The notes beneath the pieces are model-generated. The model searched no databases, had not been told where the DNA came from, and saw only the letters and a program-made list of their open reading frames with translations. Positions 2,331-54,396 of a stretch of 56,806 nucleotides of DNA are shown one piece after another. Within the stretch, counting starts at the first letter, position 1, and the number at the start of each line of letters is the position of its first letter. The DNA is from Oscillospiraceae bacterium (lineage in GTDB: Bacteria > Bacillota > Clostridia > Oscillospirales > Acutalibacteraceae). The DNA is taken from contig SVPH01000017.1 of assembly GCA_015065965.1 (NCBI GenBank), positions 1 to 56,806 of the forward strand. The letters run 5' to 3'. The translations under genes were made by a program, and so were the position numbers.

Positions 2331-5245
2331 TGAAAAAAAACAAAATTCTGATTGCCGCAATATCAGGCATAGCGGTTATCATCATCGGCATAGTTGTTGC
2401 CATGTTTGCCACCGGCAAATTCAGTTCGCTCATAAATTCATTTGAGAGTGAACCGACAACAACCGTGCCTGCAGAAACAACACAAGCAATTATTCAGGTT
2501 TCAGGCAGGCCAAAAAGCGTAAAACCGGAATCAATAATCGCAACCGAATACTCCGATTATTCAGAGTCAAGTGCCGAAGATCTTGCAAAGTTTGAAAATT
2601 TGGGTTTTAACACCGTTATTTTTGAACTTAATTCAAACAACACTGAAACCGTGGCATCTCTGCTTGAAATTGCAGGCAAAAACTCGCTTTATTACGGCAT
2701 CTATGCTGATATTTCACAAGGCAGCGATTATCTTACCGACTTCTCAAAAAAACTCAACACCGACTTTATTATTCTGGGCGGTTATGATGAAACGCTTACC
2801 GATTATACCGAAAAAATCAGCACGATATGCAAAACGATAAAAGAAGATATTGACCCTGCAATGAGCATCGGTCTTAAGCCTTCATACACTTCAAAAGCAA
2901 CTCAGGCACTCACAGATATTGTAACAAACGGTAACGCTGATTTTGTTTATCTTTGCCATGAGAGCAAAAAGAACTCTGTTTTTGAATCGGCCCAGGCTGT
3001 GTGGAATGAAGAAACCTGCCCTCTTTGGCTTTGCCACAATCTCAGCGGACTCTCATCATTTTCAACCGATGATGCATCTGCAATGGTTGACCTTATTGCG
3101 GCATCAGCCGATATGTCTATGTGCAAGGCACTTGCATTTACTCCTTTTACCGATATTTCAAAAGCAAGCGGAACATCTGCCGATATTGTTATGAACTATG
3201 TCCGTGAGCGTGACACATATCTGCTTGACAAAAACTTCTCGCTCACAAGCCACAAGAATACCAACATCACGGTTGAGCAGTCAACAATCACTTTCAGAGG
3301 GACAAGCAGCCCTGCACATGAACTCAAATGCAACGGCAAAGTTCTTAATGTTGCAAAAAACGGTGACTTTTCTGTTGACGTCGGTCTTGAAGTCGGCAAA
3401 AACACAATTAAGTTTGAACACAAAAATAAAACTTACACATACACAGTAACCTATAAAATCAAGTTACTTAAATCCGTTTCGCCCGCAGACGATATTTCCG
3501 TTCCGGGAGAAATGCTTGTTGAAGTTTCTGCAATCGCACACAAAAAAGCCTCTGTTTCGGTTGTATTCAACGGCAAAACATACAAGATGACAGCAACAGG
3601 AGGTGCTTCGGACTCCGAAGAAGAAACACCTGATGAATCATCGGATTTCACAACCTTCACAGCAACGCTTGAAACTCCTGCAAGCACCGATAAAGTTCAA
3701 AAACTCGGCAAATATAAAGTTACGGCAAAATACAGTTCTCTTACCGAAACTCTCAGCGGTGCAAACATCAACATTACTGCACAGGAAATTGTTGTTCCTC
3801 CTCCTGTGACACAGCCTGTAACAACAACCACTACAACACAACTTCCGACAACAACGACAACATCGGCTGACGAATCGGGTGAAAACTCCACTGACGTAAC
3901 GCACTCTTCCGGCGAAAGCACATCAGCAACCGTGTCGGAATCCGAATCGGGTAATGTCGGCGGAACATTACAGAAATATTACTACTCGGAAAACTATGGT
4001 CTTGGCACTGCAAGAATTTGCGAAATAATTGACGACTATGTTGAAACATATCCCGGCAATACAACAAGTACGTTTTCAGTTCCCGACTGCTCGCCACTGC
4101 TCAAAGGCACGGTTGATTATGTGAAATCCACCGCCACATATGACGGTGATACATACTATATACTTGCATCGGGTGTTAAAGTTCCTCACTTGCGCGAAGA
4201 GAGGCTGGCAAGCGGCATTGAAGGCAAGATTACCCATGTAAACATAAAAGATGGTTATATTATGCCTAAAAACAATATCAATGTTCTCTCAAGCAGCACA
4301 AACAGCGGTGACACCGTTATTGTTCTTGAAATGAACAGATCCGTTGCCTTCAACGCTTCTCTTTTAGGGCAGACATATACGCTCTATAACGGCAACAAGT
4401 TAAGACCCGTTGTTGTTTCCTCTCTCAACTGTACAGGATTTGAAATTACATTCAGTGACACGGTTTCCGCTCAGGGCAACGTTTCACTGATGAACTCTGT
4501 ATGTAAGAGCGCAAAGTGGTCTTCTGACTCTTCAAAATCAACAGTCACCCTTTCGTTTGAACTTGCTCAGAAAGGTAAGTTCTACGGTTTCCACTATGAA
4601 TACGATAAAAACGGAAATCTTGTTATTACAATAAAACACAAGCCCGCATCATCGCTCAGCGGCTACACAATCATGCTCGATCCCGGTCACGGCGGCATTG
4701 ACCCCGGCGCAGGCTGTGCGGTTTCATCGGCAAGTCTCGGTCAGGAAAAGGATATAAACCTCTCAATAGCAACAAAGGTAAGAGAACTTCTTGAGGCCGA
4801 AGGCGCAAAAGTAATTATGACAAGATCAACGGATAAATGGGTATGCTATGCAGACAGAAACGCTGCCGTACGCAATCAGAACCCTGATATGTTTATTGCA
4901 ATTCACTGCGACTCCAGCAGTTCTGCATCGGCAATGGGCACATCGGCATACTATTACAGAGCCTATTCACAGCCGCTTGCAAAAGAAATCCATGAAAATA
5001 TAGTAAACGCATATAAAAACCAAATTTATAAAGACAGAGATGAAAGCATAAAAAGCAAAATCAGCAGAGGTGCAAACTTCTACGCATTCAGAGTTGCAAG
5101 AGTTGAAGAATGCCCTGCAATACTTATCGAATACGGTTTTGTTTCAAACACTGACGAATGCCAGATTCTTCAGACTGCCGCAAACAGAGATGTTCTTGCT
5201 GCAGCAACCGTACAAGGCATAAAAGATTATATCAGCCAAAGTTAA
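2330..5245 (+). CDS. Membrane-anchored N-acetylmuramoyl-L-alanine amidase with barrel-like N-terminal domain
   Basis: A 971-residue surface protein. Residues ~5-27 form a membrane anchor, followed by a short Thr-rich stretch. Residues ~60-290 look like a divergent TIM barrel resembling the GHL10 domain of its neighbour (LGFNTVIFELNSNN). Beta-rich regions follow, then a Thr/Ser linker at ~494-542. The C-terminal domain (~778-971) is Amidase_3: DPGHGG with His787, Glu806 and His859 as predicted zinc ligands and Glu934 in IEYGF as catalytic residue. It should cut the bond between muramic acid and the stem peptide of peptidoglycan outside the cell. It is coupled to the upstream lipoprotein and overlaps the convergent gene by 14 bases. 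Confidence 0.9.
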   Translation: MKKNKILIAAISGIAVIIIGIVVAMFATGKFSSLINSFESEPTTTVPAETTQAIIQVSGRPKSVKPESIIATEYSDYSESSAEDLAKFENLGFNTVIFELNSNNTETVASLLEIAGKNSLYYGIYADISQGSDYLTDFSKKLNTDFIILGGYDETLTDYTEKISTICKTIKEDIDPAMSIGLKPSYTSKATQALTDIVTNGNADFVYLCHESKKNSVFESAQAVWNEETCPLWLCHNLSGLSSFSTDDASAMVDLIAASADMSMCKALAFTPFTDISKASGTSADIVMNYVRERDTYLLDKNFSLTSHKNTNITVEQSTITFRGTSSPAHELKCNGKVLNVAKNGDFSVDVGLEVGKNTIKFEHKNKTYTYTVTYKIKLLKSVSPADDISVPGEMLVEVSAIAHKKASVSVVFNGKTYKMTATGGASDSEEETPDESSDFTTFTATLETPASTDKVQKLGKYKVTAKYSSLTETLSGANINITAQEIVVPPPVTQPVTTTTTTQLPTTTTTSADESGENSTDVTHSSGESTSATVSESESGNVGGTLQKYYYSENYGLGTARICEIIDDYVETYPGNTTSTFSVPDCSPLLKGTVDYVKSTATYDGDTYYILASGVKVPHLREERLASGIEGKITHVNIKDGYIMPKNNINVLSSSTNSGDTVIVLEMNRSVAFNASLLGQTYTLYNGNKLRPVVVSSLNCTGFEITFSDTVSAQGNVSLMNSVCKSAKWSSDSSKSTVTLSFELAQKGKFYGFHYEYDKNGNLVITIKHKPASSLSGYTIMLDPGHGGIDPGAGCAVSSASLGQEKDINLSIATKVRELLEAEGAKVIMTRSTDKWVCYADRNAAVRNQNPDMFIAIHCDSSSSASAMGTSAYYYRAYSQPLAKEIHENIVNAYKNQIYKDRDESIKSKISRGANFYAFRVARVEECPAILIEYGFVSNTDECQILQTAANRDVLAAATVQGIKDYISQS

Positions 5246-5618
5246 ATCTCTTTCTGACATAATCACTTATCCAAAATGCCGGTATACTTATAAAAAACCA
5301 TGCAAGACAAAACTGAGGGCATATTTGCCCAAACAGATTAAGCGGTTTTTCCGAATAATCCCAAACATTCCATCTGAGTACAACGTTAACTATCATGCCA
5401 ACGCTGAATTCAAGGCTTGTTATAACCGTTGCACCAAGCAGACACCTCGTAATGACGCTCAATCCTCTTGTTTGGTTAATCAGATTTATCAGCATCATAA
5501 CCGCTCCGCCGGTTAAAGCCATTGTCCAGTGGGTATATCCTCTGGCAACAACTTCAATCAGTCCGTAGGTTACTGCTCCTATGGCAAAACACATAAAATA
5601 TTCTTTCACTTTCGACAT
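5232..5618 (-). CDS. PF06541-type (putative ABC-transporter type IV) membrane protein
   Basis: The 128-residue protein has four hydrophobic segments and the family signature near its end (YSEKPLNLFGQICPQFCLAWFFIS), typical of the putative ABC-transporter type IV / CmpB family PF06541. The transporter label is a family name only; no nucleotide-binding subunit lies nearby. The start follows a GGGTGA-type ribosome site. The 3' end overlaps the amidase gene on the other strand by 14 bases, so the two transcripts converge without a terminator between them. It is divergent from the sulfatase operon. Confidence 0.75.
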   Translation of the reverse strand: MSKVKEYFMCFAIGAVTYGLIEVVARGYTHWTMALTGGAVMMLINLINQTRGLSVITRCLLGATVITSLEFSVGMIVNVVLRWNVWDYSEKPLNLFGQICPQFCLAWFFISIPAFWISDYVRKRFNFG

Positions 5619-5657
5619 TGAATCACCCAGTTTATATTTTGCAAAAGAGGTGTTTTT

Positions 5658-6722
5658 ATGCGGCAGATGACCGCCTTAATAAAGCCCGCATCCTCTGCCT
5701 GCAACCTCAGATGCAGTTACTGTTTTTACTGCGACGAGGCTGATGCAAGAGAAAAAAATCAAAATTCATTTATGAGTTGTGAAACAGCGGAAAACATCAT
5801 ATCAAAAATGTTTGATTTCTGCGGAGAAAATTCAACACTCACTTTTATGTTTCAGGGCGGCGAGCCGCTGCTGGCAGGTATTGATTTCTTCAGAAATTTC
5901 ATTGAAACTGCAGAAAAACTCAAAACAGACGGCAGCCGCATTTATTATTCTTTGCAGACTAACGGTACTCTTATTGATGAGAAATTCTGTAAACTGTTTA
6001 AAGAAAACGATTTTCTTGTGGGTGTTTCAATCGACGGCGATAAACCTCTCCATGATAAAAACCGTTCGGATTCTTTTGATAAAGCGATGCACGGTATTGA
6101 ACTTTTAAGAAGCCATAATGTAAGTTTTAACATTCTTTCTGTCATAACTTCGCATACAGATGCAAAAAAACTGTATGATTTTTATATGGCAAACAACTTT
6201 CGGGATGTTCAACCGATTTACTGCCTCGACTCTTTGAGCGGCGACAAAGCAAATTACAGCATTGATGCAAAGCAACTCGCCCGTTTCAAAAAGCGACTTT
6301 TCAACCTGTGGTTTGCAGAGGTTTCAAAAGGCAACCATTTCTATGTGCGTGATTTTGATAATCTGCTTTCCCTTATGACTAAAGGTGTTGCCGAGCAATG
6401 CGGAGCAAGCGGCAGATGCAACGCCCAACTTGTTGTTGAGGCTGACGGTACATGTTACCCGTGCGATTTCTACTGCCTTGATAAGTTTGAATGCCTCAAT
6501 ATAAATCAGGCAGATATAAACGATATATTAAACTGTGACGGTTTAAAGAAATTCTTTGAATTTGACGAGCCCAAAAACAGTCTTTGCGCCACCTGCCACG
6601 TTAAAACTCTTTGCGGCGGAGGATGTAAAAGATACAGAAGCCTTTATAATCAACTTTCAGGATACTGCCCTCAAATGGATTTTATTTTGCATGCGGTTGA
6701 AAAACTGCGCAATGTCAGATAA
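5658..6722 (+). CDS. Anaerobic sulfatase-maturating enzyme (radical SAM/SPASM)
   Basis: Residues 15-22 hold the radical SAM cluster motif CxxxCxxC (CNLRCSYC), followed by an MFQGGEPLL glycine-rich SAM site. The C-terminal half has the Cys-rich SPASM pattern (CGASGRCNAQ, CYPCDFYC, CATCHVKTLCGGGC) that binds two auxiliary 4Fe-4S clusters. At 354 residues it is close to the usual 370-400. The family oxidises an active-site Cys or Ser of sulfatases to formylglycine without oxygen, in the cytosol. The very next gene encodes a Cys-type sulfatase, which fits as its substrate. An AGAGG ribosome site precedes the ATG. The sulfatase start lies 13 bases after the stop. Confidence 0.93.
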   Translation: MRQMTALIKPASSACNLRCSYCFYCDEADAREKNQNSFMSCETAENIISKMFDFCGENSTLTFMFQGGEPLLAGIDFFRNFIETAEKLKTDGSRIYYSLQTNGTLIDEKFCKLFKENDFLVGVSIDGDKPLHDKNRSDSFDKAMHGIELLRSHNVSFNILSVITSHTDAKKLYDFYMANNFRDVQPIYCLDSLSGDKANYSIDAKQLARFKKRLFNLWFAEVSKGNHFYVRDFDNLLSLMTKGVAEQCGASGRCNAQLVVEADGTCYPCDFYCLDKFECLNINQADINDILNCDGLKKFFEFDEPKNSLCATCHVKTLCGGGCKRYRSLYNQLSGYCPQMDFILHAVEKLRNVR

Positions 6723-27199: not shown

Positions 27200-27224
27200 C
27201 AGTTCGACAAATTGGAATTTGTCG
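27200..27224 (-). repeat. Stop-codon palindrome, copy A
   Basis: It contains GACAAATTGGAATTTGTC (27206-27223), nine-base arms counting the outer C-G pair. Read in the direction of the kinase-like gene it begins directly after that gene's TAA. The 3' extension GAACTG is shared with copy D. Confidence 0.75.
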
Positions 27225-27740
27225 TTATAAATCAATATTGATTTCGTACTTTTCTTCAATGAGTATATAGTTCACACCATACCTCTGCGCCAGGTCAAAC
27301 ATTTCAGCATTATCTGCCAATACACTCTCCATTGCACACCATTCATCATCCAAACGATTTTCAATGACATTTGCATATTTCTTTATGTCAGCAAAGTGAT
27401 TTCTGATATAATCTTCACTCATTACAAGGCAGTAATATTTAATATCTTTGAGATATTCGTTTTCAAAATCTTTCTGCCAATCGAACGGAATATAACAACC
27501 TTCAACAACAAAGTTCTGCTTGTTTTCAATAGCAGTTTTTATCATTTCACGGACGATGGGCCATAAGTATGCGGTCAACTCATTATCATCACTCATAGGA
27601 GTAAGTTCTGTATTACCGCTACGAATTAAACCCATTTTCAGATGGTCTATTGAAAGATATGGGTATTTATACTTTTCAAGCAGTTTTTGTGCAAGTGCTG
27701 TCTTGCCCGTGTGCGATGCACCTGTAATTAGAACAATCAT
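27225..27740 (-). CDS. P-loop kinase-like NTPase (AAA_33 type)
   Basis: The 171-residue protein opens with VLITGASHTGKTAL, a Walker A loop (GxxxxGKT), followed by LSIDHLKMGLIRSG, a small-kinase-like segment, and FVVEGCYIPFDW, a possible Walker B strand. It resembles small-molecule or zeta-type kinases; the substrate is unknown. GCAGGG is ten bases from the ATG at 27740 and directly abuts an upstream in-frame ATG (27749), so 27740 is preferred. The gene sits alone between the rhamnosidase and the tRNA operon. It has a promoter and leader shared with the gene at 45048, a palindrome right after its stop, and hairpin repeats on both sides, which marks it as a likely acquired gene. Confidence 0.75.
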   Translation of the reverse strand: MIVLITGASHTGKTALAQKLLEKYKYPYLSIDHLKMGLIRSGNTELTPMSDDNELTAYLWPIVREMIKTAIENKQNFVVEGCYIPFDWQKDFENEYLKDIKYYCLVMSEDYIRNHFADIKKYANVIENRLDDEWCAMESVLADNAEMFDLAQRYGVNYILIEEKYEINIDL

Positions 27741-27776
27741 TATCTTCATCCCTGCAAATTCTAATTTGTAGATATG

Positions 27777-27805
27777 ATTATAGCACACACAATCCGAAAT
27801 TACAA
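27777..27805 (-). promoter_or_regulatory. Promoter of the kinase-like gene with palindromic leader
   Basis: Minus strand: TTGTAA (27805-27800), 17-base spacer, TATAAT (27782-27777). Eight bases later comes the palindrome CAAATTAGAATTTG (27768-27755), then GCAGGG. The promoter at 44983 has the same boxes, spacing and downstream order. Confidence 0.7.
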
Positions 27806-27850: not shown

Positions 27851-27944
27851 AAAAAACTTCTTCACTATTACTTCTTACTTATTACTTTCCAAAAAATCCT
27901 GAATGCGATTTTAGGGAAAAGTGAAGAAGTAATAGATAATAAGT

Positions 27945-27977
27945 AAAAATCCTGAACGCTGTCGCATTCAGGATTTT
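27945..27977 (-). terminator. Terminator of the tRNA operon
   Basis: Arms AAAATCCTGAA / TTCAGGATTTT around a ten-base loop, directly after tRNA-Cys on the minus strand. Its core recurs at 27136-27161 and, as a half copy, near 27887-27915. Confidence 0.8.
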
Positions 27978-44877: not shown

Positions 44878-44886
44878 ATTAACTGC

Positions 44887-45047
44887 TATTTCTTCACCCT
44901 TACCTAAAATCGCAGTCAGAAAATTTAAGGTAAAAGGTAAGAAGTAATGATGAAGAGGTATGGGCAAGACAGCCTCACACGATTGTAATTTTAGGTTTGA
45001 TATGTTATAATCAGTTCGACAAACAAGCATTTGCAGGGATGAAAACT
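44887..45047 (+). repeat. Promoter-bearing upstream repeat, copy 2
   Basis: It aligns by eye with the reverse complement of 27741-27930 along its whole length, with gaps. The outer part is an imperfect inverted repeat (TCTTCA / TGAAGA, TTACCT / AGGTAA). The inner part carries the promoter and leader of the beta-helix gene. Confidence 0.7.
44983..45011 (+). promoter_or_regulatory. Promoter of the GH28-like gene with palindromic leader
   Basis: TTGTAA, 17-base spacer, TATAAT. GTTCGACAAACAAGCATTTG (45014-45033) and GCAGGG follow. Boxes, spacing and order equal those of the promoter at 27777-27805. Confidence 0.7.
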
Positions 45048-46322
45048 ATGATTAGTGCTAACGAATATGGTTTTTTGCCAAAAAACAACCCATACAAAAA
45101 TTCCAAAGTTTTTCAAAAAGCAGTTGATAACGGAGGAATAATTCAGGTTACTGTCCCCGGTGTTTATGAAATTTCCGAGCAGATTGAAATAGGTGATAAC
45201 ACAAAACTTGTGTTCTGTGAAGGCGTAATTATTCGGCGTAAAGCAAGTGACAGCGGTATCAACAAATGCGCTTTTATAAATAAAGGTGCACTTAACGGAG
45301 AATACAACCGTAACATTGAAATTGTCGGATTACATCTTGACTGTAACGGTATTGAAAGCAATGATTTTGGTGTGAACAGTCGGATTGCGGGACTGCGCGC
45401 ACAGGTTGCAATGATCTATGTTGAGAATTTAAAAATTGATGGTTTTGAATGCCATGGGTTGCTTGAAAAGGATTATGCAATTCAGGTAAGCGCATTTAAA
45501 AATATTATTCTCAATGATTTGTATATAACAGGAAATAAAGACGGTGTTCATCTGGGATGGGGTGACGGATTTGTTATCAGCAACAGCAAGTTCCGCACGT
45601 TCGATGACCCGATAGCACTCAACGCTTTTGATTACGCTACCTCAAACACTCATGTAGGCTGGATTGAAAACGGAATAATCGAAAACTGTGTTGATCTTGA
45701 CGATAATACAACAACAGGATTTTTTTGCAGGATTCTTGGCGGTGCATGGTGCAGATGGTACAAAGGTATGCAGGTTCAGCACTCGGACACCGTTGCGGTA
45801 AACGGTAAAACATACCGTGTTCTTATGAATCCGAAAGACGGAAAGCGTTACACTTCCCATACTCCGCCTTGCCACGAAAAAGGTATTGCAGAATATGACG
45901 GTATAAATTGGGTCGTTGTTCGCAATACAGAAGAATTCGATTGCGGTTGCCGCAACATAATAATACGAAATTGCTCACTTCAGAAAAAGCGTAACATAGG
46001 AATTGCAATAAGCCTTAATTATGATACCTATGCACGCAGTTATTATCCCGGCTGCGTTTGCGTTCCTCAAAGTGAAATTACTCTCGAAAACATCATTTTA
46101 GAAAATGATGTTGACATTTTGCTTCATTCAAATTATCCGACAGCAAATATAACACTCAAAAATATAGATTTCAAAAACTCAAAGTTTTGTTTTGATACCG
46201 TATCAAAAGCAGATAAAATCATTTATCCTGAGGTTGAGATAAACGCAGAAAATGTTGTTTTTAATAAAAACACAATACAAACCAACCCGAAGCATCCGAT
46301 AAAAATATGCTTTACGAAATAA
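45048..46322 (+). CDS. GH28-like right-handed beta-helix protein, cytosolic
   Basis: The 425-residue protein has a start region AVDNGGIIQVTVPGVYEIS typical of pectate-lyase/GH28 folds, then beta-helix repeats with NKDGVHLGWGDGF and FDDPIALN, which resemble the Asp-bearing motifs of GH28 polygalacturonases (NTDG, DDCIA). The family cuts alpha-linked galacturonan or rhamnogalacturonan. No signal peptide is present. GCAGGG is better spaced for ATG 45048 than for the ATG it touches at 45039. The next gene is GH78-like, so the pair fits breakdown of imported rhamnogalacturonan pieces; that is inference. Confidence 0.72.
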   Translation: MISANEYGFLPKNNPYKNSKVFQKAVDNGGIIQVTVPGVYEISEQIEIGDNTKLVFCEGVIIRRKASDSGINKCAFINKGALNGEYNRNIEIVGLHLDCNGIESNDFGVNSRIAGLRAQVAMIYVENLKIDGFECHGLLEKDYAIQVSAFKNIILNDLYITGNKDGVHLGWGDGFVISNSKFRTFDDPIALNAFDYATSNTHVGWIENGIIENCVDLDDNTTTGFFCRILGGAWCRWYKGMQVQHSDTVAVNGKTYRVLMNPKDGKRYTSHTPPCHEKGIAEYDGINWVVVRNTEEFDCGCRNIIIRNCSLQKKRNIGIAISLNYDTYARSYYPGCVCVPQSEITLENIILENDVDILLHSNYPTANITLKNIDFKNSKFCFDTVSKADKIIYPEVEINAENVVFNKNTIQTNPKHPIKICFTK

Positions 46323-46326
46323 TAAA

Positions 46327-46350
46327 GATAAATTTTAATTTGTAAAACAG
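46327..46350 (+). repeat. Stop-codon palindrome, copy H
   Basis: GATAAATTTTAATTTGTAAA begins four bases after the stop of the GH28-like gene. By eye it matches copy A, read in gene orientation, at about 21 of 27 positions. Confidence 0.55.
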
Positions 46351-46406
46351 TTTGAAAAACTTGAATTTATTAATCAAAAGTATTGCTATAAAGTGAGATT
46401 TTTACT

Positions 46407-47867
46407 ATGAAAGATAAAAAATACTTCTTGAGCAAAGCCCAAAATAATTACCCTGAACTTATTTACACAGTTCTTACTTCCCGTATAAACGAATTCACCG
46501 CCACAAGCGGTGACAGCATACTCCTTGACCTTGGCGAACACGCCGTGGGACATTTTTCCTTTACTTTTGATAAGGTAGATATTTTTGTTGATGCTCCCGT
46601 TCGGTTAATCATCAAGTTTGGTGAAGATTTGAGAGAAATCAATGATGATTTTTCTCAATATAAGGGCACACTTTCAAAAACGTGGTTACAGGAAGAAATA
46701 GTAAATCTCGATTCTCCTCAAAAAACAACCCTACCCCGAAGGTACGCTTGCAGATACATAAAAATAACGGTAGAAAAAGCCAACAGACCTATAAAACTGT
46801 TTGACTTCTCTTTCCGCGCTTCAACAAGTGCGGATGCTTCCGTTCTGAAACCTGTAAACACAAAGGATACCTTGCTGAATAAAATTGACCTTGTTGCAAC
46901 CAACACTCTCAAAGAATGTATGCAGACTTTCTTTGAAGACGGACCCAAGCGTGACCGCCGTCTCTGGATTGGCGATCTAAGACTTGAAGCCCTCACAAAT
47001 TATTACACATTTAACAACCTCGAAATCGTAAAAAGATGCTTATATCTTTTTGCTGCAGGCGAATGCAACAATCTCGGTTTTCTGCCGTCATTTGTTTACG
47101 AAACACCCTATTATCATTCGGGAGCAACGCATATTGAGGATTATGCACTTTTGTATGTCGTAAGCGTATGCGATTATTATGAGCATACCGGTGATATAAG
47201 TGTTATAAATGACCTTCTTCAAATCTGCAAATCGCAACTTGAATGCTTCAGAGAAACGCTCGATGAAAATCTGATTGTCACAAGACAGGACGGTTGGTTT
47301 GCTTTTATCGACTGGTGTCCCGGTCTGGAAATTCTTACATCGCTGCAAGGTGTTTATCTCTACACGCTTGAACGCTTTGCAAAATTACTTAAAGCAATCG
47401 GTGATGAAGAATGCGAAAAATATTTATCTCATCTTTATGAAGTCCGTTGCGCTTGCAAAACATATCTTTACAATGAAAATGAAAATGCATTTATTAACGG
47501 TTTTGACAACAATCAATTCAGTGTCCATTCTCAGGTATGGATGATATTGGGCGGTGTAATAAGCGGAGCAGAAGCAAAAGAACTTTTGCTTTCCTGTCTT
47601 GATAATGAAAAAGCCAAACAACCTGTCACTCCATACATGCGCCATTATGTGACAGAGGCAATGTTAAATCTGGATATGAAAAATGAAGCCGTTCAATATC
47701 TTAAGAAGTTTTGGGGAGGAATGCTTGACCACGGTGCAGACACATTCTGGGAAGCATACATTCCTGATGATCTTGATTTTTCACCGTACGAGGACAGAAT
47801 GATAAACAGTCTCTGCCATGCCTGGAGTTGCACACCGTCATATTTTATCCGAAAATACGGGATGTGA
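46407..47867 (+). CDS. GH78-like (alpha/alpha)6-barrel glycosidase, short form
   Basis: The 486-residue protein resembles GH78 rhamnosidases: an N-terminal beta-sandwich (SILLDLGEHAVGHFSF), then the barrel with FEDGPKRDRRLWIGDLRLEAL, equal to the usual DCP-R-ER-GWTGD motif, HGADTFWEAY and CHAWSCTPSYF. It is much shorter than full GH78 enzymes, lacking accessory sandwich domains. There is no signal peptide. The ribosome site is weak. It probably releases rhamnose or a related sugar from an oligosaccharide processed with the upstream GH28-like protein. Confidence 0.8.
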   Translation: MKDKKYFLSKAQNNYPELIYTVLTSRINEFTATSGDSILLDLGEHAVGHFSFTFDKVDIFVDAPVRLIIKFGEDLREINDDFSQYKGTLSKTWLQEEIVNLDSPQKTTLPRRYACRYIKITVEKANRPIKLFDFSFRASTSADASVLKPVNTKDTLLNKIDLVATNTLKECMQTFFEDGPKRDRRLWIGDLRLEALTNYYTFNNLEIVKRCLYLFAAGECNNLGFLPSFVYETPYYHSGATHIEDYALLYVVSVCDYYEHTGDISVINDLLQICKSQLECFRETLDENLIVTRQDGWFAFIDWCPGLEILTSLQGVYLYTLERFAKLLKAIGDEECEKYLSHLYEVRCACKTYLYNENENAFINGFDNNQFSVHSQVWMILGGVISGAEAKELLLSCLDNEKAKQPVTPYMRHYVTEAMLNLDMKNEAVQYLKKFWGGMLDHGADTFWEAYIPDDLDFSPYEDRMINSLCHAWSCTPSYFIRKYGM

Positions 47868-48047
47868 TTTATGGTAATGATTTATATTATGAAGGATTAA
47901 CGGTGTATTATAGATGAATCAGGTATTCCTGACAGAGTCAAAGCATCTGAAAAAACACAATTTGTTAATATGAAACACCCGAAGCAACAGCAAGTTGCTT
48001 GTTTATAAAAACATTCGGCGTTAGAATAATACTGAGGTGATAAATTT
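47868..48047 (+). other. Intergenic stretch with possible gene remnant
   Basis: A short open frame (about 47910-48008) without a start codon encodes a protein-like string beginning RCIIDESGIPDRVKASEKTQ and ending at TAA. It may be the tail of a decayed gene, but this is weak. ACAATTTGTTAAT at ~47959-47971 looks like half of the stop-codon palindrome. A small AAGCAAC / GTTGCTT hairpin follows. No clear promoter was found. Confidence 0.3.
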
Positions 48048-48812
48048 ATGGAAACAAAAGATATTATTCTTGAACTCAGAACAAAAAACGGTATGTCACA
48101 GGATGAACTGGCAGACAAAGTATTTGTAACCCGTCAGGCGGTCAGCCGTTGGGAGAACGGTGAAACTACGCCGAACACCGAAACTCTGAAGTTGTTATCA
48201 AAGTTGTTTGATGTTTCTATCAACACTCTTTTAGGTTCTCCGAGAAAACTTATCTGCCAATGCTGCGGTATGCCGCTTGAAGATGCCAATATCAGCAAAG
48301 AAACAGACGGCTTTTTTAATGAGGAATATTGCAAATGGTGTTATGCCGACGGTGAATATATGTATCATGATATGGATGAACTGATAGAGGTCTGCGTGCA
48401 GAATATGGCAAGTGAGCACTTCACTTCAGAACAGGCTCGTGCATATATGAAGGATATGCTTCCCAAACTTGATTACTGGAAAAAATATAAAAATCTTGAC
48501 GGTGCGGAAAAGTTTGAAGAATTTAAACAACGGCTGATCAGTGAGTTTAACGATTTGCATATCGAAGGAATGCCGAAGGTTGAAAAACTCAACGCTCTTG
48601 TGGGCGGATATATCAACCTTGAATACCGCCTCCCAAATGGTCAGACTGTGAAATTCCTTGATGACAATGCAACCTATCTCGGAAATCAACTTGAATGTGA
48701 ATTCGGCGGTGAGCGTTGTTTCGGTATTGCCGCAAATATGGATTTTTTGCTTGTTTGCACATACGAAGAAAACGGTAAAAATCCGGAATTGGTTGTTTAT
48801 AAAAAGAGATAG
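48048..48812 (+). CDS. XRE-family regulator with PF12674-type zinc ribbon
   Basis: Residues ~5-63 are an XRE helix-turn-helix (MSQDELADKVFVTRQAVSRWENGETTPN). Next comes a zinc ribbon with CQCCGMPL and EEYCKWCYADGEY (four Cys, PF12674 type), then a helical segment. The last ~85 residues (YINLEYRLPNGQTVKFL) may be a small beta domain that binds a ligand. It is probably a repressor or activator of nearby glycan genes. The ribosome site is GAGGTGA. Its stop is overlapped by palindrome copy G, and GH16 follows on the same strand. Confidence 0.83.
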   Translation: METKDIILELRTKNGMSQDELADKVFVTRQAVSRWENGETTPNTETLKLLSKLFDVSINTLLGSPRKLICQCCGMPLEDANISKETDGFFNEEYCKWCYADGEYMYHDMDELIEVCVQNMASEHFTSEQARAYMKDMLPKLDYWKKYKNLDGAEKFEEFKQRLISEFNDLHIEGMPKVEKLNALVGGYINLEYRLPNGQTVKFLDDNATYLGNQLECEFGGERCFGIAANMDFLLVCTYEENGKNPELVVYKKR

Positions 48813-48833
48813 ACAAATAAGAATTTATAGAAC
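48812..48833 (+). repeat. Stop-codon palindrome, copy G (diverged)
   Basis: GACAAATAAGAATTTATAG followed by AAC begins at the last base of the TAG stop of the XRE gene. By eye it matches copy A at about 19 of 27 positions. Confidence 0.45.
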
Positions 48834-48873
48834 AATTATAAAAATCAGAATTTGTACGAAAGGATAAAAAATC

Positions 48874-49944
48874 ATGTTCAGAAAAAGTATGGTTTTTTTG
48901 CTTGTTTTAACTATGTTGCTCGGCTTGCCGTCAGTCGCATATGCCGAAGAATGTGTTCCCGAAAGGGAAGGCTATGTGCTTGATTTCAGCACCGAATTTA
49001 ATGACGGCAATTTAAATACAGAGTATTGGTTACCGCAATATCTGCCTCACTGTACTGCCAACACAGCGGGGTCCACTGCAAGATATAAAGTCGAGAACGG
49101 TTATCTGAATCTGTATATCACAAAAGATTCTCCCGATTATTTCGGCGGTCAGCCCGGCTCTGCAGACCCCGATAATCTTCTATGGATAGCCAACGGTATT
49201 CAGACTTGGGAAAAGAATCATCTGCATCCGGGCGGTGCTCAGCAGAGGGAAGTTGAGCCTTATGAAGGATATGCTACACAGTACGGCTACTTTGAGATAA
49301 GAATGAAAATGCCTGACACAGGTGGCGGCGGATACGCTTCGTGGTGGCTGATCGGTGCTCAGGATGATACCGACGGAACAGGTTCTGTTCAGAACGGTGA
49401 AATAGATGTGTTGGAAACCTTTTTTAAATCTCCGGGAGTATTTGAGCCCAAGATCCATGCTTGGGATGATCCCGATCTTGACGAATGGGCAAGCAGGGTT
49501 GAATTGGATGGCGACCCAAGTGACTATGTTAATGAATTTCACACATATGCTATGGACTGGAGACCCGAAGGAATAACATTTTATGTTGACGGAAAAGAAG
49601 TGGCGCAGACGATGGAATCACCGCAATACAGAATGTGCATGATTTTGTCTATGTATATAAATTCTGATTTCAGCGGTTGGGATGAACCCGAAAATAACTA
49701 TCCAATAGAATGGCTGATTGATTATGTCCGTGTCTATAAAGATAAAAACGGTTATGACGAGAGCAACCGCCTTACTGAATTTGAGCGCTTCATAAAAGAT
49801 ATATGCGACTCACTTACCGCGTTTTGGCATCGTGTCCTATCTTTTTTTCAAGACCTCTGTCCGCAATGTCGTCAGTTCTTTGAGCGTTTGTTAAGTAAGA
49901 TTCCCGCTTTGTACAGAACAGCAAATTCCAATTTGTTAAACTGA
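48874..49944 (+). CDS. Secreted GH16 beta-glucanase-like enzyme
   Basis: A signal peptide ends near SVAYA. The GH16 fold follows with GYFEIRMKMPDTGGGGYASWWLIG and the catalytic motif ExDxxE at Glu176, Asp178, Glu181 (GEIDVLETF), then MDWRPEGITFYVDGKEV. GH16 enzymes cut beta-1,3 or beta-1,3/1,4 glucans or galactans outside the cell. Residues from ~290 form an extra helical, Phe/Cys-rich tail. The last codons (ANSNLLN) are made of palindrome copy D, so the original C-terminus may have been replaced by the repeat. A terminator follows. Confidence 0.88.
   Translation: MFRKSMVFLLVLTMLLGLPSVAYAEECVPEREGYVLDFSTEFNDGNLNTEYWLPQYLPHCTANTAGSTARYKVENGYLNLYITKDSPDYFGGQPGSADPDNLLWIANGIQTWEKNHLHPGGAQQREVEPYEGYATQYGYFEIRMKMPDTGGGGYASWWLIGAQDDTDGTGSVQNGEIDVLETFFKSPGVFEPKIHAWDDPDLDEWASRVELDGDPSDYVNEFHTYAMDWRPEGITFYVDGKEVAQTMESPQYRMCMILSMYINSDFSGWDEPENNYPIEWLIDYVRVYKDKNGYDESNRLTEFERFIKDICDSLTAFWHRVLSFFQDLCPQCRQFFERLLSKIPALYRTANSNLLN
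49922..49943 (+). repeat. Stop-codon palindrome, copy D (inside the GH16 3' end)
   Basis: CAAATTCCAATTTG is followed by TTAAACTG; the last two bases of the copy are the first two of the TGA stop. Copy A shows the same core followed by TCGAACTG. Confidence 0.7.
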
Positions 49945-49950
49945 AACTTC

Positions 49951-49984
49951 AAAAGCAACAGCCCGAAAGCTGTTGCTTTTTTTC
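49951..49984 (+). terminator. Terminator of the GH16 gene
   Basis: Arms AAAAGCAACAGC / GCTGTTGCTTTT with a six-base loop and a run of T. Its descending arm contains the -35 box of the next promoter. Confidence 0.85.
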
Positions 49985-50000
49985 GTGCAGGTGGTATAAT
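49973..50000 (+). promoter_or_regulatory. Promoter of the membrane beta-helix gene
   Basis: TTGCTT, 16-base spacer, TATAAT. The leader GTTCGATAAATCAGATTTCA (50003-50022) then GGAGGG resembles those at 27.75 and 45.02 kb in order and position. Confidence 0.65.
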
Positions 50001-50002
50001 GT

Positions 50003-50028
50003 GTTCGATAAATCAGATTTCAGGAGGG
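50003..50028 (+). repeat. Leader half-palindrome, copy F
   Basis: GTTCGATAAATCAGATTTCA begins two bases after TATAAT and runs into the AGGAGG ribosome site. It corresponds to GTTCGACAAACAAGCATTTG in the leader at 45014. Confidence 0.45.
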
Positions 50029-50037
50029 TTTATTTTT

Positions 50038-52677
50038 ATGAAGAAAACCTTGAAAGCGAAAATATCCGGAACAATTTGTCTTGTTTTGGGCATAGCTTTT
50101 GCAATCGTCGGATTGTATTATTTCCATATGCAGTATCTCTGCTTTGAATATACACCGCTTCAGTTTATTCTCGGCTTTGTTGTCTGCCTTGGCGGAGCAT
50201 TGCTTTCGATACCGCTGAGTAAAAAAACGGATAAAAAGAAAACAGCATTGAATGCAGCCTTGACGGTTTTGGTCTTTGCGCTTGTCCTTATCGGACTTAT
50301 GTTTTTGATAAATGCCGTAATCGGCAGCGGTGAGCTTGAGCTTGCGGCAATGGTTATTCCCGTGTATCTCACATTCATTATCACATCTGTTATGGCTTTG
50401 CTTTGCGTGTTCAGGATATTTGACAGCAAGATTTTAAAAGCGATTCTCTCCGTACTTATTGTTATCGGTTTTCTCTTCGGAAGTCATTCATATATCAAAT
50501 CGCATATTTATGTTTTGCTTTACGAAGATTACACTGCTCCTGTGCCTGTTATATCAACAGTATCAAAAGAAAAGAATGATGATAAAATGATTATCGGCGA
50601 TTTTTATGTCAGCACGAACGGCAATGATGAAAACAGCGGAACAAAAGATTCGCCGTTTCTGACAATTGAAAAAGCGATTGAAGCTGTAAGAAATACAGAT
50701 AAAGCCGGTAAAAACGGAATAACCGTCTGCATCGAAGCGGGTGAATACCGTGTGTCTACTCTTAACTTTACCAAAGAGGATTCAGGCACAGAGGAATGCC
50801 CCGTAACTTACTGTTCTTATAACGGTGAGGTTGTTATCAACGGCGGTATAACACTTGATACCGCTGATTTTAAAAATGTAAAAAGTTATCCCGAAATTGA
50901 AGAAAGACTTTCTGCCGATGCTCGGGAAAATGTTACGGTTGTTGACCTGACAAAAGAGCCGTATTCTCTCACAAGCGATGATTGGGGTAAGATTTATGCA
51001 ATCGGCTCTTACCATACGGCAGATAACTATGACGGCGATTACACAGGACCTCTTTATTGCGAGCTTTTCGTGGATGACATAAGACAAACCGTTGCAAGAT
51101 ATCCCGATAATGAATATCTTTATACCGAAGAGGTTGTAAAAACAGGTTTGGGCAAGGAATCCGACGGAGCGCTTACAGAGGTTAAAGATTGGGATAAAAT
51201 CCGCAACCCCGAATCCGATATTTACAAAGTCAATCCTGAACTTGCAAAGAGAATTTCAGGCTGGAAAAATCTTGAGGATGTGTGGATGTTCGGCTATTGG
51301 AAATATGACTGGGCGGATGCTTCAACTCCCGTAGGAAGTTTTGATAAAGATACCCGTGAGCTTTCTCCCAGATTCGTTAGTCTTTACGGAACAAAAACCG
51401 ATGCACCTTACTATTTTTTCAATGTTCTTGAAGAACTTACAACAGAGGGTGAATGGTATCTCGACAGAGAAAACGGATTGCTTTGTATGTGGGAACCTGA
51501 AAACAAGGATAATGCAGAAATTATTCTTTCTCTCTCACTCAATCCCGTAATTAATTCCGAAGCTAATTACATCACCTTTGACGGATTAATCGTAAAAGGA
51601 ACACGAAGTGACGGCGTAGTTATAACAGGCAATAATAATACCGTTCAGAATTGCCTTATCAAAAATGTTGCAGGCAATGCTCTTGTTATGAACGGAAGCA
51701 ACAATCTTGCATATAACAACGAAATTACCCGTACAGGAAAGGGCGGAATTATTATTTCCGGCGGTGATACAGAAGCTCTTACTCCCGGCAACAGCAAGGC
51801 TGACAACAATTACATCCACGATTGGTCGGAAATTTACCAGACCTATCAGCCTGCCGTTACTCTTGAAGGCGTGGGAAATATCTGTTCTCATAACGAAATG
51901 GCAAACTCTCCTCACGAAGCAATTACTTACAAAGGCAACAATCATATTATTGAATATAACCTTATCCACGATGTATGCCTTCTTTCGGATGATGCGGGTG
52001 CAATTTATTCGGGAAGAAGCTGGGTGTGGTACGGCAATGTTGTAAGATACAACTGTATCTATAACGTCGGTTCGGAAAATCACAGACCCGACGGTATTTA
52101 TCTTGATGATGCGGTTTCAGGTCAACAGATATACGGCAACCTTCTTATCAATATTCCGAGCAATTCAATTCACGTCGGCGGCGGCAGAGACAATGTCATA
52201 ACCAATAATATTATAGCGAATCCGGGCAATAACGCCCTGAGATTCGATGACAGAGCAAGAGAGGGTGCTATTGAAAACGGATGGTTTACTCACGCTCATG
52301 TCGGCAGCGGTGATATGTGGGAAGCACTGTATAATTCACCCTGGCAGAGTGAAACCTGGCAAAATGCATTCCCCGAATACAAGAACTGCACAGACGATAT
52401 TTCAAAATCAGATTCGCCCGATTATATTCCCAACCCTGCAAGCACCTTCAAAAATAATATTATCATTAATAAAAATATGGGCTACGGCGAAGTTTACAGC
52501 TCCGTTTGGAAGTTCAGCGATATAAGCGAAAATGCAATATATAATGTAGGCAAATGCGATGAAATCTTTGTCGATATCAATAACGGAGATTATAATATCA
52601 AAGATATTGATGAAATCAGAAAAGATGCTCCTGGTTTTAAAGAAATCCCTCTTGAAATGATAGGTAGGGTAAACTGA
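50038..52677 (+). CDS. Polytopic membrane protein with extracellular beta-helix (GH141/DUF1565-like)
   Basis: The 879-residue protein starts at the ATG after AGGAGG. Residues ~1-160 hold four or five membrane helices (ICLVLGIAFAIVGLYYF, FILGFVVCLGGALL, VLVFALVLIGLMFLI, VYLTFIITSVMALLCVF, ILSVLIVIGFLFG). From ~185 comes DFYVSTNGNDENSGTKDSPF, the start of DUF1565-type right-handed beta-helix domains, followed by many helix rungs (NNTVQNCLIKN, NNLAYNNEITRTG, GDNVITNNII-like). Related secreted proteins include GH141 and polysaccharide lyases. A multi-helix anchor is unusual for the fold. The palindrome copy E overlaps the stop. Confidence 0.78.
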   Translation: MKKTLKAKISGTICLVLGIAFAIVGLYYFHMQYLCFEYTPLQFILGFVVCLGGALLSIPLSKKTDKKKTALNAALTVLVFALVLIGLMFLINAVIGSGELELAAMVIPVYLTFIITSVMALLCVFRIFDSKILKAILSVLIVIGFLFGSHSYIKSHIYVLLYEDYTAPVPVISTVSKEKNDDKMIIGDFYVSTNGNDENSGTKDSPFLTIEKAIEAVRNTDKAGKNGITVCIEAGEYRVSTLNFTKEDSGTEECPVTYCSYNGEVVINGGITLDTADFKNVKSYPEIEERLSADARENVTVVDLTKEPYSLTSDDWGKIYAIGSYHTADNYDGDYTGPLYCELFVDDIRQTVARYPDNEYLYTEEVVKTGLGKESDGALTEVKDWDKIRNPESDIYKVNPELAKRISGWKNLEDVWMFGYWKYDWADASTPVGSFDKDTRELSPRFVSLYGTKTDAPYYFFNVLEELTTEGEWYLDRENGLLCMWEPENKDNAEIILSLSLNPVINSEANYITFDGLIVKGTRSDGVVITGNNNTVQNCLIKNVAGNALVMNGSNNLAYNNEITRTGKGGIIISGGDTEALTPGNSKADNNYIHDWSEIYQTYQPAVTLEGVGNICSHNEMANSPHEAITYKGNNHIIEYNLIHDVCLLSDDAGAIYSGRSWVWYGNVVRYNCIYNVGSENHRPDGIYLDDAVSGQQIYGNLLINIPSNSIHVGGGRDNVITNNIIANPGNNALRFDDRAREGAIENGWFTHAHVGSGDMWEALYNSPWQSETWQNAFPEYKNCTDDISKSDSPDYIPNPASTFKNNIIINKNMGYGEVYSSVWKFSDISENAIYNVGKCDEIFVDINNGDYNIKDIDEIRKDAPGFKEIPLEMIGRVN

Positions 52678-52693
52678 CAAATTCCAATTTGTC
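52676..52693 (+). repeat. Stop-codon palindrome, copy E
   Basis: GACAAATTCCAATTTGTC is a perfect dyad and begins inside the TGA stop of the beta-helix gene. It lies 15 bases before the annotated end of the recombinase gene on the other strand. Confidence 0.75.
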
Positions 52694-52707
52694 GGGCACA
52701 ATCATTT

Positions 52708-54396
52708 TCAATCACACAAATATTTAAAATTAAACAAGGACATTACCCGGCAGTGAAAACCGCTCTGAGTAATGTCCTGTTTTTGTTCACAAAGCCGCTT
52801 GAAACAAGGCGAAAAAGCCTGTTTTTCCGAGAATAATGTCCAAATAATGTCCAAGGGGTAAAAATAACGGAAATGAAAAAAGCTGAAACCGTTGTATATC
52901 AACGATTTCAGCTTTTCTGAAGATGGTCCGAGAGAGGATACCAATCCCGAACTTAACCCCGAATTTTCTATCTCTTTAAATGAAATTTGTTTTGAACCTT
53001 TTTTGTAATTAAGGTTAATCAAAATCTTATCGTCATAAACCACTATACTGTTAACAAAGTGGTCAACTAAAGTTTTGCGACCCTTTACAGTATCCGTATC
53101 AACATCCCTGAAGCTCATTATGTAAAAATAAATCTGCTCGAATGTGTACGTAGGTTTCCTGATTTCTTCTTTTATTATACTTGCTTCAAGCTCGGATTTC
53201 AACACTTCCAAATCGTCAAGACGTTTTTTCGTTGAGTCATTCAATATTCCTGCCTGAATTGCGTTAAGCATATTCTCGATGCCTTTTTCTGTTTCTTCAA
53301 GTTGCTTTCTGAGCAACGGAAGCTCGCTGCTTTCCTTTTCCTGAAGTTCAAATGCTTTTGTCGCAAGATAGTTAACAAACCCGTCATCCATAAGCATTTT
53401 CTTTATGTGTCCGATAACAACTTCTTCAAGCTTGTCCTTACGGATTGATTTGTGCTTTGCATCGCAAAGCTTCTTTTTCTTTGTGTTTACACATCTGTAA
53501 TAATGATATTTGTTCCCCGTACAACTTGTTCCGCTTTCGCCAACCATATACGATTTGCAAGTTCCGCAGAACAGTTTTGTTGTGAAAATATACGCATCAT
53601 CATCGGTTCTTCGTCCGGTTGCCTTTCTGCTTGTTGCAATGCGATACTGTACGCTGTCATACAATTCCGGACTGACTATCTGAGGTATGCCGCCCGGAAT
53701 AACAATATCACGGTAAACATATTCGCCTTTGTATCTCGGATTATGAAGAATACCTCTGATAAAATTCAGATCAATGTTTTTGCCCCTGACGCTTTTTACA
53801 CCTTTTTCATTGAGATAATCACAGATTTTCTGCATTGTTATTCCCGAATCATACATCTCAAATATTTCAAGAACAACAGGTGCGGTTTCTGGATTGAGCT
53901 GATAATGTTTATCCTCGTCAATTCTGTAACCGAATGTAAGTGTTCCGCCGTTATACTTGCATTTAAGAGCATTCTCCGTATGACCTCGGGTGACTTTCAC
54001 CGACAGTTCCGCCGAATAATATTCCGCCATTCCTTCAAGCAACGATTCAAGAATAATTCCTTCGGGACCGTCGGAAATATTTTCTTTGACCGACATAACC
54101 CTGACACCGTTCTTTTTGAGAATGTGTTTGTAATGAGCACTGTCGTATCGGTCTCTTGAAAATCTGTCGAGCTTCCAAACGAGTACAATATCAAACAATC
54201 TCTTTTCACTGTCGGCAATCATCCTCTGAAAATCAGGTCTGTCATCGGTACGGGCAGAGAGTGCTCTGTCAACATAGCTGCCGAGAATCGTGATTCCGTT
54301 TCGCTCGGCATACTCCGTACATTCACGAATCTGACCGTCAATTGATTCTTCACGCTGACTGTCGGAAGAATAACGTGCGTAGATAACTGCTTTCAA
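52708..54396 (-). CDS. Large serine recombinase
   Basis: The 562-residue protein has a resolvase domain (VIYARYSSDSQREESIDGQ with catalytic Ser10, then VWKLDRFSRDR), a recombinase domain (GYRIDEDKHYQLNPE, FIRGILHNPRYKGEYVYRD), a zinc ribbon (FCGTCKSYM ... YRCVNTKKKKLCDAKH) and a coiled coil at ~345-420. Such enzymes integrate and excise phages or conjugative elements at att sites. It starts at TTG overlapping the TGA of the XRE gene (TTGA), so it is coupled to it. The last ~75 residues, after SSLGPSS, are read from a terminator-like hairpin and AT-rich DNA and look like read-through, not a normal C-terminus. Confidence 0.92.
   Translation of the reverse strand: MKAVIYARYSSDSQREESIDGQIRECTEYAERNGITILGSYVDRALSARTDDRPDFQRMIADSEKRLFDIVLVWKLDRFSRDRYDSAHYKHILKKNGVRVMSVKENISDGPEGIILESLLEGMAEYYSAELSVKVTRGHTENALKCKYNGGTLTFGYRIDEDKHYQLNPETAPVVLEIFEMYDSGITMQKICDYLNEKGVKSVRGKNIDLNFIRGILHNPRYKGEYVYRDIVIPGGIPQIVSPELYDSVQYRIATSRKATGRRTDDDAYIFTTKLFCGTCKSYMVGESGTSCTGNKYHYYRCVNTKKKKLCDAKHKSIRKDKLEEVVIGHIKKMLMDDGFVNYLATKAFELQEKESSELPLLRKQLEETEKGIENMLNAIQAGILNDSTKKRLDDLEVLKSELEASIIKEEIRKPTYTFEQIYFYIMSFRDVDTDTVKGRKTLVDHFVNSIVVYDDKILINLNYKKGSKQISFKEIENSGLSSGLVSSLGPSSEKLKSLIYNGFSFFHFRYFYPLDIIWTLFSEKQAFSPCFKRLCEQKQDITQSGFHCRVMSLFNFKYLCD
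52737..52784 (+). terminator. Terminator of the beta-helix gene
   Basis: Arms AGGACATTAC / GTAATGTCCT enclose a 22-base loop and are followed by GTTTTT. The arms contain two of the four local copies of TAATGTCC. Confidence 0.6.
52834..52852. repeat. TAATGTCC direct repeat near the recombinase 3' end
   Basis: TAATGTCC occurs at 52834-52841 and 52845-52852, an 11-base period. Further copies lie at 52770-52777 and, inverted, at 52738-52745. Confidence 0.6.
52878..52916 (-). terminator. Terminator-like hairpin inside the recombinase reading frame
   Basis: Arms AAAAGCTGAAA-CGTTG / CAACG-TTTCAGCTTTT with one mismatch pair and a five-base loop; the minus-strand side continues in T. It probably is the original recombinase terminator. 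Confidence 0.7.

Follow-up and report, generated by a model that had tools for sequence, protein, structure and literature searches.

The window analysed here, which is the whole stretch of 56,806 nucleotides, contains genes that are bounded by two forms, designated R and L, of one near-palindromic site (Table 1). Consensus sequences were derived from alignments of 17 R sites and 31 L sites. R (GACAAATAAGAATTTGT) precedes gene starts, ahead of the ribosome-binding site, and is often followed by the GAGG of the latter; L (GACAAATTCCAATTTGTC) is found at stop codons, usually with GAAC or GGGC next to it. When reversed, R corresponds to the L motif with a different centre, the centre triplet being mostly AAG in R versus TCC in L. 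The dyad copies named in a preliminary description of this DNA were all recovered: those at 27206 (minus strand) and 52676 (plus strand) are perfect, that at 49920 (plus strand) is good, and those at 46327 and 48812 are diverged. They had been placed at or just after stop codons, which holds for most of them; the GH16 copy lies inside the last codons of the gene, before its stop codon. A related half directly after TATAAT had been reported for three gene starts. This was confirmed at 27.75 and 45.02 kb, with a spacing of 6 bp, and by eye at 50.01 kb, where the half is more diverged. Searches of the window's array against Rfam gave no match. A short inverted-repeat element (CTTCTTCAC.../...GTGAAGAAG) was seen by eye upstream of both window platforms (27860-27950 and 44885-44960).

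Table 1. Sites, genes and flanks in the window, with the basis of each assignment.
Feature	Coordinates	Strand	Basis or remark
L site, perfect GACAAATTCCAATTTGTC	27206..27223	-	Profile score 30.8; one base past the kinase-like gene's stop codon
Cassette gene, small AAA/zeta-like kinase	27225..27740	-	Pfam AAA_33, E 1e-5, just under cut-off
R site	27753..27770	-	6 bp after TATAAT (27777-27782), ahead of ribosome-binding site
TATAAT of platform promoter (predicted)	45006..45011	+	10/12 matches including its -35
Platform R site	45018..45035	+	Profile scan and TATAAT spacing
Cassette gene, GH28-like	45048..46322	+	Pfam GH28, E 8e-4, below cut-off
Diverged junction, two half-sites 27 bp apart, second weak	46327..46371	+	Profile scan
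Cassette gene, GH78-like	46407..47867	+	Pfam search
Degenerate L and flank common to L142:7411	47957..48000	+	By eye; a different gene precedes in L142
Cassette gene, XRE and zinc ribbon	48048..48812	+	Pfam search
Junction: half-site at stop, 9 bp, R	48812..48856	+	Profile scan
Cassette gene, GH16	48874..49944	+	Pfam search; stop 49942-49944
L site inside GH16 end	49920..49937	+	Followed by terminator-like hairpin
TATAAT, 6 bp, diverged R of next unit (~50007)	49995..50024	+	By eye; under scan thresholds
Cassette gene, beta-helix membrane protein	50038..52677	+	Pfam search
L site, perfect, array end	52676..52693	+	Exact core and profile
Platform right flank, terminator-like hairpins to tRNA-Pro 3'-end remnant	52694..52930	+	Nine other loci
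Large serine recombinase; probably integrase of element in tRNA-Pro 3' end	52708..54396	-	

The exact core CAAATTCCAATTTG occurs three times in the 2.33-Mb genome, each time on the contig of the window (27208-, 49922+ and 52678+), and the reversed control not at all. The window was scanned on both strands at 16 bits with profile matrices built without the window's own rows. This yielded six L-type and seven R-type matches, some of which are a single palindrome read twice; the means for shuffled windows were 0.0 and 0.2, respectively (20 shuffles of two-base blocks). If three mismatches are allowed, the 14-bp core shows no enrichment in the window (20 copies vs 20.7 expected), and the signal is therefore carried by the longer profile only. 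Pairs of half-sites 27 bp apart are present at 46327/46354 (the second weak, 10.7 bits) and 48812/48839. The same spacing was found in 9 of a set of 14 junctions; the two window junctions fall below the thresholds of that set. The preference for stop codons, suspected from the window, was strong and confined largely to the same strand: with sites having less than 250 bp upstream left out, 98 of 145 L sites lay at -25 to +20 of a same-strand stop codon and 8 at this distance of an opposite-strand one, compared to 19 of 725 random positions.

All six cassette genes of the window recur at other loci, where in most cases a site adjoins the gene and the neighbouring genes differ. The earlier proposal that a gene and its 3' site act as one unit is supported, and both observations which had been named as refuting it, namely hits without stop-codon bias and genes lacking the repeat at their boundaries, came out the other way. 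Homologues of the kinase-like gene were found at nine other loci, eight of which have site-like sequence at one end of the gene or at both (by eye). The GH28-like gene is also present in L217 and L016 (query out of frame) and the GH78-like gene in L135, L069 and L260, each among other neighbours. For the XRE gene one other locus was found (L072); there it follows the GH16 gene and in the window it precedes it, on the same platform. The GH16 gene is present at six other loci with differing downstream sequence, and the gene that follows it is an acetyltransferase, a small membrane protein, a VOC protein or the beta-helix gene. The last of these was found in G063, G034, G028 and G011 at 94-96% identity, with different right flanks in G034, G028 and G011.

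Different genes were found on conserved platforms in prophages, on ParA/ParB elements and at further loci. To the right, the prophage contigs L305 and L308 show 99.97% identity along 3666 bp, counted from 4 bp before L; to the left, they show 89.2% identity along 4338 bp, and the match stops one base short of the end of R. The segments between R and L (1530 vs 453 bp) are unrelated (shared 13-mers 0.00). Phage records resembling L308 were not found. A ParA/ParB element carries an ANT(6) cassette in Faecalicatena orotica (L287) and a DUF3784 cassette in Monoglobus pectinilyticus (L397, NZ_OY725736.1); here the left flanks are 94.4% identical over 3140 bp, ending within R, and the right flanks, from L position 3 onwards, 83.8% identical over 253 bp. 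The L287 cassette (4366-6105) consists of a nucleosidase-like gene and a gene for an ANT(6) aminoglycoside 6-adenylyltransferase (NF033084, above cut-off), and the ANT(6) cassette was also found in L222, L250, L262, L276 and L311, from several gut species. Nine loci, two of them from one genome, have one platform in common, as judged from their pairwise matches left and right of the cassette, and between them contain eight different cassettes. Platforms of different loci have 79-389 bp of left and 80-172 bp of right flank in common. L064, L068 and L070 form a further case of different cassettes on a common platform. In these counts, contigs present twice (L248/L320, L288/L313 and L064/L259) were taken as one. 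Seen in this way, the gene would be exchanged together with its site as a single cassette, as in integrons.

Loci that differ by a single unit were also found. L130 has the order CAT-R-methyltransferase and L132 the order CAT-R-new gene-methyltransferase, with one border of the insert in R and the other end degenerate. L124 combines the promoter flank of L074 with the right flank of L134 around one site and without a gene, and is apparently an empty platform. One promoter-R-gene-L unit of G147 is missing from three sister species, with no clean empty site; this comparison is uninformative because the rest of the sisters' intergenic DNA is unrelated. Contig ends within 300 bp of the 96 exact-pattern sites were located on the gene side in 27 cases and on the flank side in 3, with 1.9 expected per side; assemblies thus tend to break on the gene side. 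Several cassettes per platform in the population, or a repeated flank, would both fit these breaks, and only the first would mean current activity.

Swaps of this kind might result from ordinary homologous recombination via common promoters, terminators or leaders, with the palindromes as transcription signals that are carried along. The stretches that platforms of different loci have in common, given above, are in line with this explanation. However, the borders fall inside the 18-bp core across many platforms, including L287/L397 with right flanks that are 16% different, and single-cassette units sit between differing chromosomal genes in different genomes. We therefore consider homologous recombination quite improbable as the source of the exchanges.

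The mobile unit could also be the intergenic piece that runs from an L to the next R, similar to REP/BIME or MITEs with the palindromes as inverted ends, in which case the genes would be bystanders. L and R are indeed inverted copies, and many right-flank homologies end after 45-260 bp. A phage sequence (L306:1500-13100, IMG/VR 3300032167_007702) contains several palindrome-bounded intergenic pieces of 200-280 bp at the ends of structural genes, which have their interiors in common and of which one copy is inverted. The preliminary description had named a lineage-specific intergenic repeat as the main alternative, and the MITE-like pieces of L306 with these ends conform to it; elsewhere, however, it is the genes that vary. 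The prophage, isolate and shared-platform pairs change genes and keep both outer flanks, L132 gains a gene at a single R, and in several pairs (for example window/L064, L079/L133, L082/L295 and L305/L308) the right-flank homology extends over 2-3.5 kb without homology on the gene side. These observations make movement of intergenic pieces an unlikely explanation for the arrays as a whole, and movement of the genes as cassettes is considered further below.

The location of the exchange was estimated from pairs of sites that have one side in common. Pairs are not independent; sites with identical surroundings were merged, which left 293. Where L sites have the right flank in common but not the gene (301 pairs from 157 sites), agreement is 0.94-1.00 over positions 3-14 and about 0.3 ahead of position 0. 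Where they have the gene in common but not the right flank (84 pairs from 81 sites), agreement is 0.83-1.00 over positions 3-14 and drops from position 15 onwards. For R sites with a common upstream flank (64 pairs), agreement lasts to position 14 and drops from 16, and for those with a common gene (17 pairs) it begins at position 3; position 7 is variable in both classes of R pairs. The agreement profiles thus bound the exchange to the core, and because the core is alike in all sites any finer placement is made without confidence. Position 10 rather tracks the flank. The centre of R in L287/L397 differs with the cassette, which points to approximately AAAT. That R mostly keeps AAG and L keeps TCC is what one would expect if the exchange took place on one side of the centre.

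On the upstream side, a perfect TATAAT was present 3-10 bp from R in 24 of 78 sites and in none of 78 shuffled ones. When near matches are included the number is 30 of 78, and in 22 of these 30 the spacing is exactly 6 bp; the other R sites include internal junctions. Such a layout would correspond to an attI-like platform with a predicted promoter upstream of the insertion point. The platform common to nine loci has the order promoter, hairpin leader (often with another insertion), R, cassette, L and terminator-like hairpin. The conserved hairpin leader (GGGCTTTGCCC, TTTGTAATACAAA) between promoter and R was observed in L313:6650-6993 and eight homologous loci, and gave no Rfam match in the six loci searched. 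In the prophages, R directly follows a deformylase-like gene, and a promoter-like sequence was seen by eye within the segment of L305. Just to the right of the prophage L is a conserved module with genes for a small HTH-like protein and serine recombinase (L073:1-1593, L305:6122-9678 and L308:4863-8419); in L305 and L308 two serine recombinase genes of this module are present in tandem.

A link between the cassettes and the serine recombinase beside the window array, at which the genes were said to end while all pointing one way, did not hold up. The genes of the array do run one way, and the recombinase is encoded on the other strand. The right flank of the last L was found in ten copies in eight genomes (nine other loci and seven other genomes) at 86-96% identity, and the recombinase is next to it in two of the ten (window and G028); in three of the eight copies without it the contig stops 0.35-0.8 kb after L, too soon to exclude a recombinase. 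On the gene side of the nine other copies there was no homology in eight and the same gene (beta-helix) in G063. In G014 and in one G002 copy the flank continues into a tRNA-Pro (GGG), some 230 bp from L, and in G063 a tRNA-Pro is located a further 2.9 kb on; it is at the 3' end of this tRNA that the sequences of the window, G028 and several others part. The rare linkage, together with the continuation into and divergence at tRNA-Pro, makes it most likely that the serine recombinase belongs to an element inserted at tRNA-Pro. It would thus be the integrase of that element, residing in the tRNA-Pro 3' end and outside the cassette system. A tRNA at the other end of the element was not found in that part of the window. 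The recombinase frame is about 70 codons longer than the usual end of its homologues and reaches into the platform flank (52708-52915). The tRNA-Pro 3' end beside the platform is the apparent insertion point for several different elements (window 52694-52930, L064-L071).

That the neighbouring serine recombinase would nevertheless move the cassettes is hardly credible. The window frame ends 15 bp from L and serine recombinases are found within 4 kb of sites in 14 loci, but these enzymes are of several kinds with differing neighbours, and, of the ten flank copies just described, two lead to tRNA-Pro without it and that of the window diverges at the tRNA end. In addition, a serine recombinase would need identical centres, and those of R and L differ as described above.

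The distribution of the sites was determined at several levels. At one mismatch or less, GACAAATTNNAATTTGTC was found in 21 of 60 genomes (own one counted), and its reversed control in one (G008). The L model gave a best E ≤0.001 in 19 of the 45 genomes of the genus, and E ≤1 in 41 of 45, a level at which chance matches are expected. In the order, 101 of 394 genomes from 18 families had matches at E ≤0.001, and many genomes of ~99% completeness, including the single-contig G212, had none at this threshold. The exact 22-bp form was found in 96 stretches among 84,980 species genomes. By title, all of these are Clostridia or Bacillota, save one labelled 'bacterium'; they are mostly MAGs, many from animal gut, and the isolates among them are Pseudoflavonifractor (two), Anaeromassilibacillus and Faecalicatena. 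A second lineage has a 64-68 bp site that consists of L, a 25-bp spacer and R, and that recurs between different genes. It was found in 17 of 45 genus genomes at E ≤0.01, over at least 55 bp in 12 and as halves in the others, and is identical over 56-68 bp in five genomes (query source counted).

Among 105 representative genes that end at a site, GNAT acetyltransferases were most frequent (at least 19), followed by methyltransferases, hydrolases and XRE regulators. Most of the 105 show a site at the 3' end only, and some may therefore not be cassettes. Recombinase families were absent from the 25 most frequent matches listed for these representatives. Genes with a site on both sides are small: 30 of 38 encode 105-248 amino acids.

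Candidates for the enzyme were sought in the same genomes. None of the 45 genus genomes had an integron integrase (TIGR02249) above cut-off, although incomplete MAGs could hide one, and scanning of the frames near the sites did not reveal a recombinase that is constantly beside them. When the tyrosine recombinases of six genomes were compared, one (Xer) was common to five. A XerC-like family of about 310 amino acids, with the best TIGR02249 scores in the genus, was rejected: at E <1e-80, four of its nine genomes (G425, G324, G343 and G152) were among the site-bearing 101 of 394, and no site of at least 16 bits was adjacent in the six loci read. Its members (L084, L085 and L398-L401) are sporadic in the order, some of them near contig ends.

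The cassettes could also be moved by the host Xer, with the 26-bp palindrome acting as a dif-like site, as has been proposed for pdif modules. This is a version of the cassette explanation, within which its weight lies, and we regard it as possible but doubtful. The size and symmetry of the palindrome fit a 10-6-10 site, one Xer is common to five of the six genomes, and the sites span the order. The palindrome is, however, not dif itself, as it is missing from the near-complete genomes mentioned above, and G026 has Xer and yet shows no site match at E ≤1. A dif of this genus was not found for comparison: the Firmicute-type dif pattern gave 8 matches in 6 genomes versus 6 for the reversed control.

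Overall, the data are very probably explained by a mobile gene-cassette system that works like an integron, as far as can be judged from comparison of sequences. A platform would comprise a promoter, the near-palindromic site and a terminator, with the site often 6 bp after TATAAT and otherwise behind a leader or another gene. A cassette would be one gene, sometimes two, with its own ribosome-binding site, and would be joined at the site to the platform or to another cassette. The most likely course is that circular cassettes are attached to the platform by a site-specific recombinase whose gene lies elsewhere, acting at a single point of the core, within positions 3-14 and probably 3-10 of GACAAATTCCAATTTGTC (counted from 0). 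Integration would split the platform site, so that its left part and the right half of the cassette site form R before the gene, and the left end of the cassette and the right half of the platform site form L at the stop codon; excision would be the reverse. The enzyme acting in trans would most likely be a tyrosine recombinase, and the cassette genes may be transcribed from the platform promoter. Sites are present in roughly one in four of the genomes sampled from one gut-Clostridia order, and a system of this kind would provide a way of exchanging genes that searches relying on attC would be expected to overlook. Its cassettes already include an ANT(6) aminoglycoside-resistance gene in cultured isolates. 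The defined site and the natural swaps provide a starting point for finding the recombinase and the mechanism.

Integrons have in common with this system a promoter platform, small cassettes, a recombination site at the gene end and a single region of exchange; GNAT-rich cassettes, a resistance gene and clusters without adjoining integrase are shared with integrons and CALIN. The differences are the absence of IntI above cut-off in the genus genomes, the short palindromic sites, the scattered platforms and the short arrays seen. The attC boxes have the consensus RYYYAAC and GTTRRRY. The two boxes did not occur together within 14 bp of the core in any of 213 L and 78 R sites (291 in total). GTTRRRY alone was found in 25 L and 11 R sites (8.5 and 4.5 when shuffled), mostly outside the core, and RYYYAAC alone in 5 and 2 (10.8 and 1.7 when shuffled). 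The pairing between half-sites showed no covariation in the 14 junctions compared, where 3526 and 4121 of 5000 shuffles reached the observed pairing, and fold z-scores ranged from -0.4 to -2.7. As judged by the boxes the site differs from attC, as had been noted in the preliminary description; the 64-68 bp site of the second lineage is nearer to attC in size. In Firmicutes, integrons are reported to be extremely rare, a single complete case being mentioned (PMC9024848). Since no enzyme was found, the hairpin test was unsupportive and the attC boxes do not occur together, the claim made here is one of integron-like working and not of integron membership.

REP/BIME sequences and MITEs form inverted pairs of palindromes just past stop codons, a likeness that is seen in phage L306; the arrays differ from them in that genes too are exchanged, with the palindromes as borders. 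The nearest system without an integrase of its own is that of the pdif modules of Acinetobacter plasmids, in which genes lie between short, inversely oriented, near-palindromic sites of about 28 bp. A gene between two inversely oriented sites is likewise what was found here. These modules are reported to move, presumably, via Xer recombination and without a dedicated integrase (PMC6449649, PMC7399989). Unlike pdif, the present sites do not have the dif sequence, are missing from many near-complete genomes and are tied to the ribosome-binding site and the stop codon, and the exchange appears off-centre. A description of such a system was not found in the literature covered, in the parts available (most subscription papers and all preprints are outside its scope). 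We lean towards the view that the arrays represent a separate integron-like class of gut Clostridia, with its own palindromic counterparts of attI and attC and an undescribed recombinase, by which genes, those for drug resistance included, would be passed among chromosomes, prophages and ParA/ParB elements within the order and outside it.
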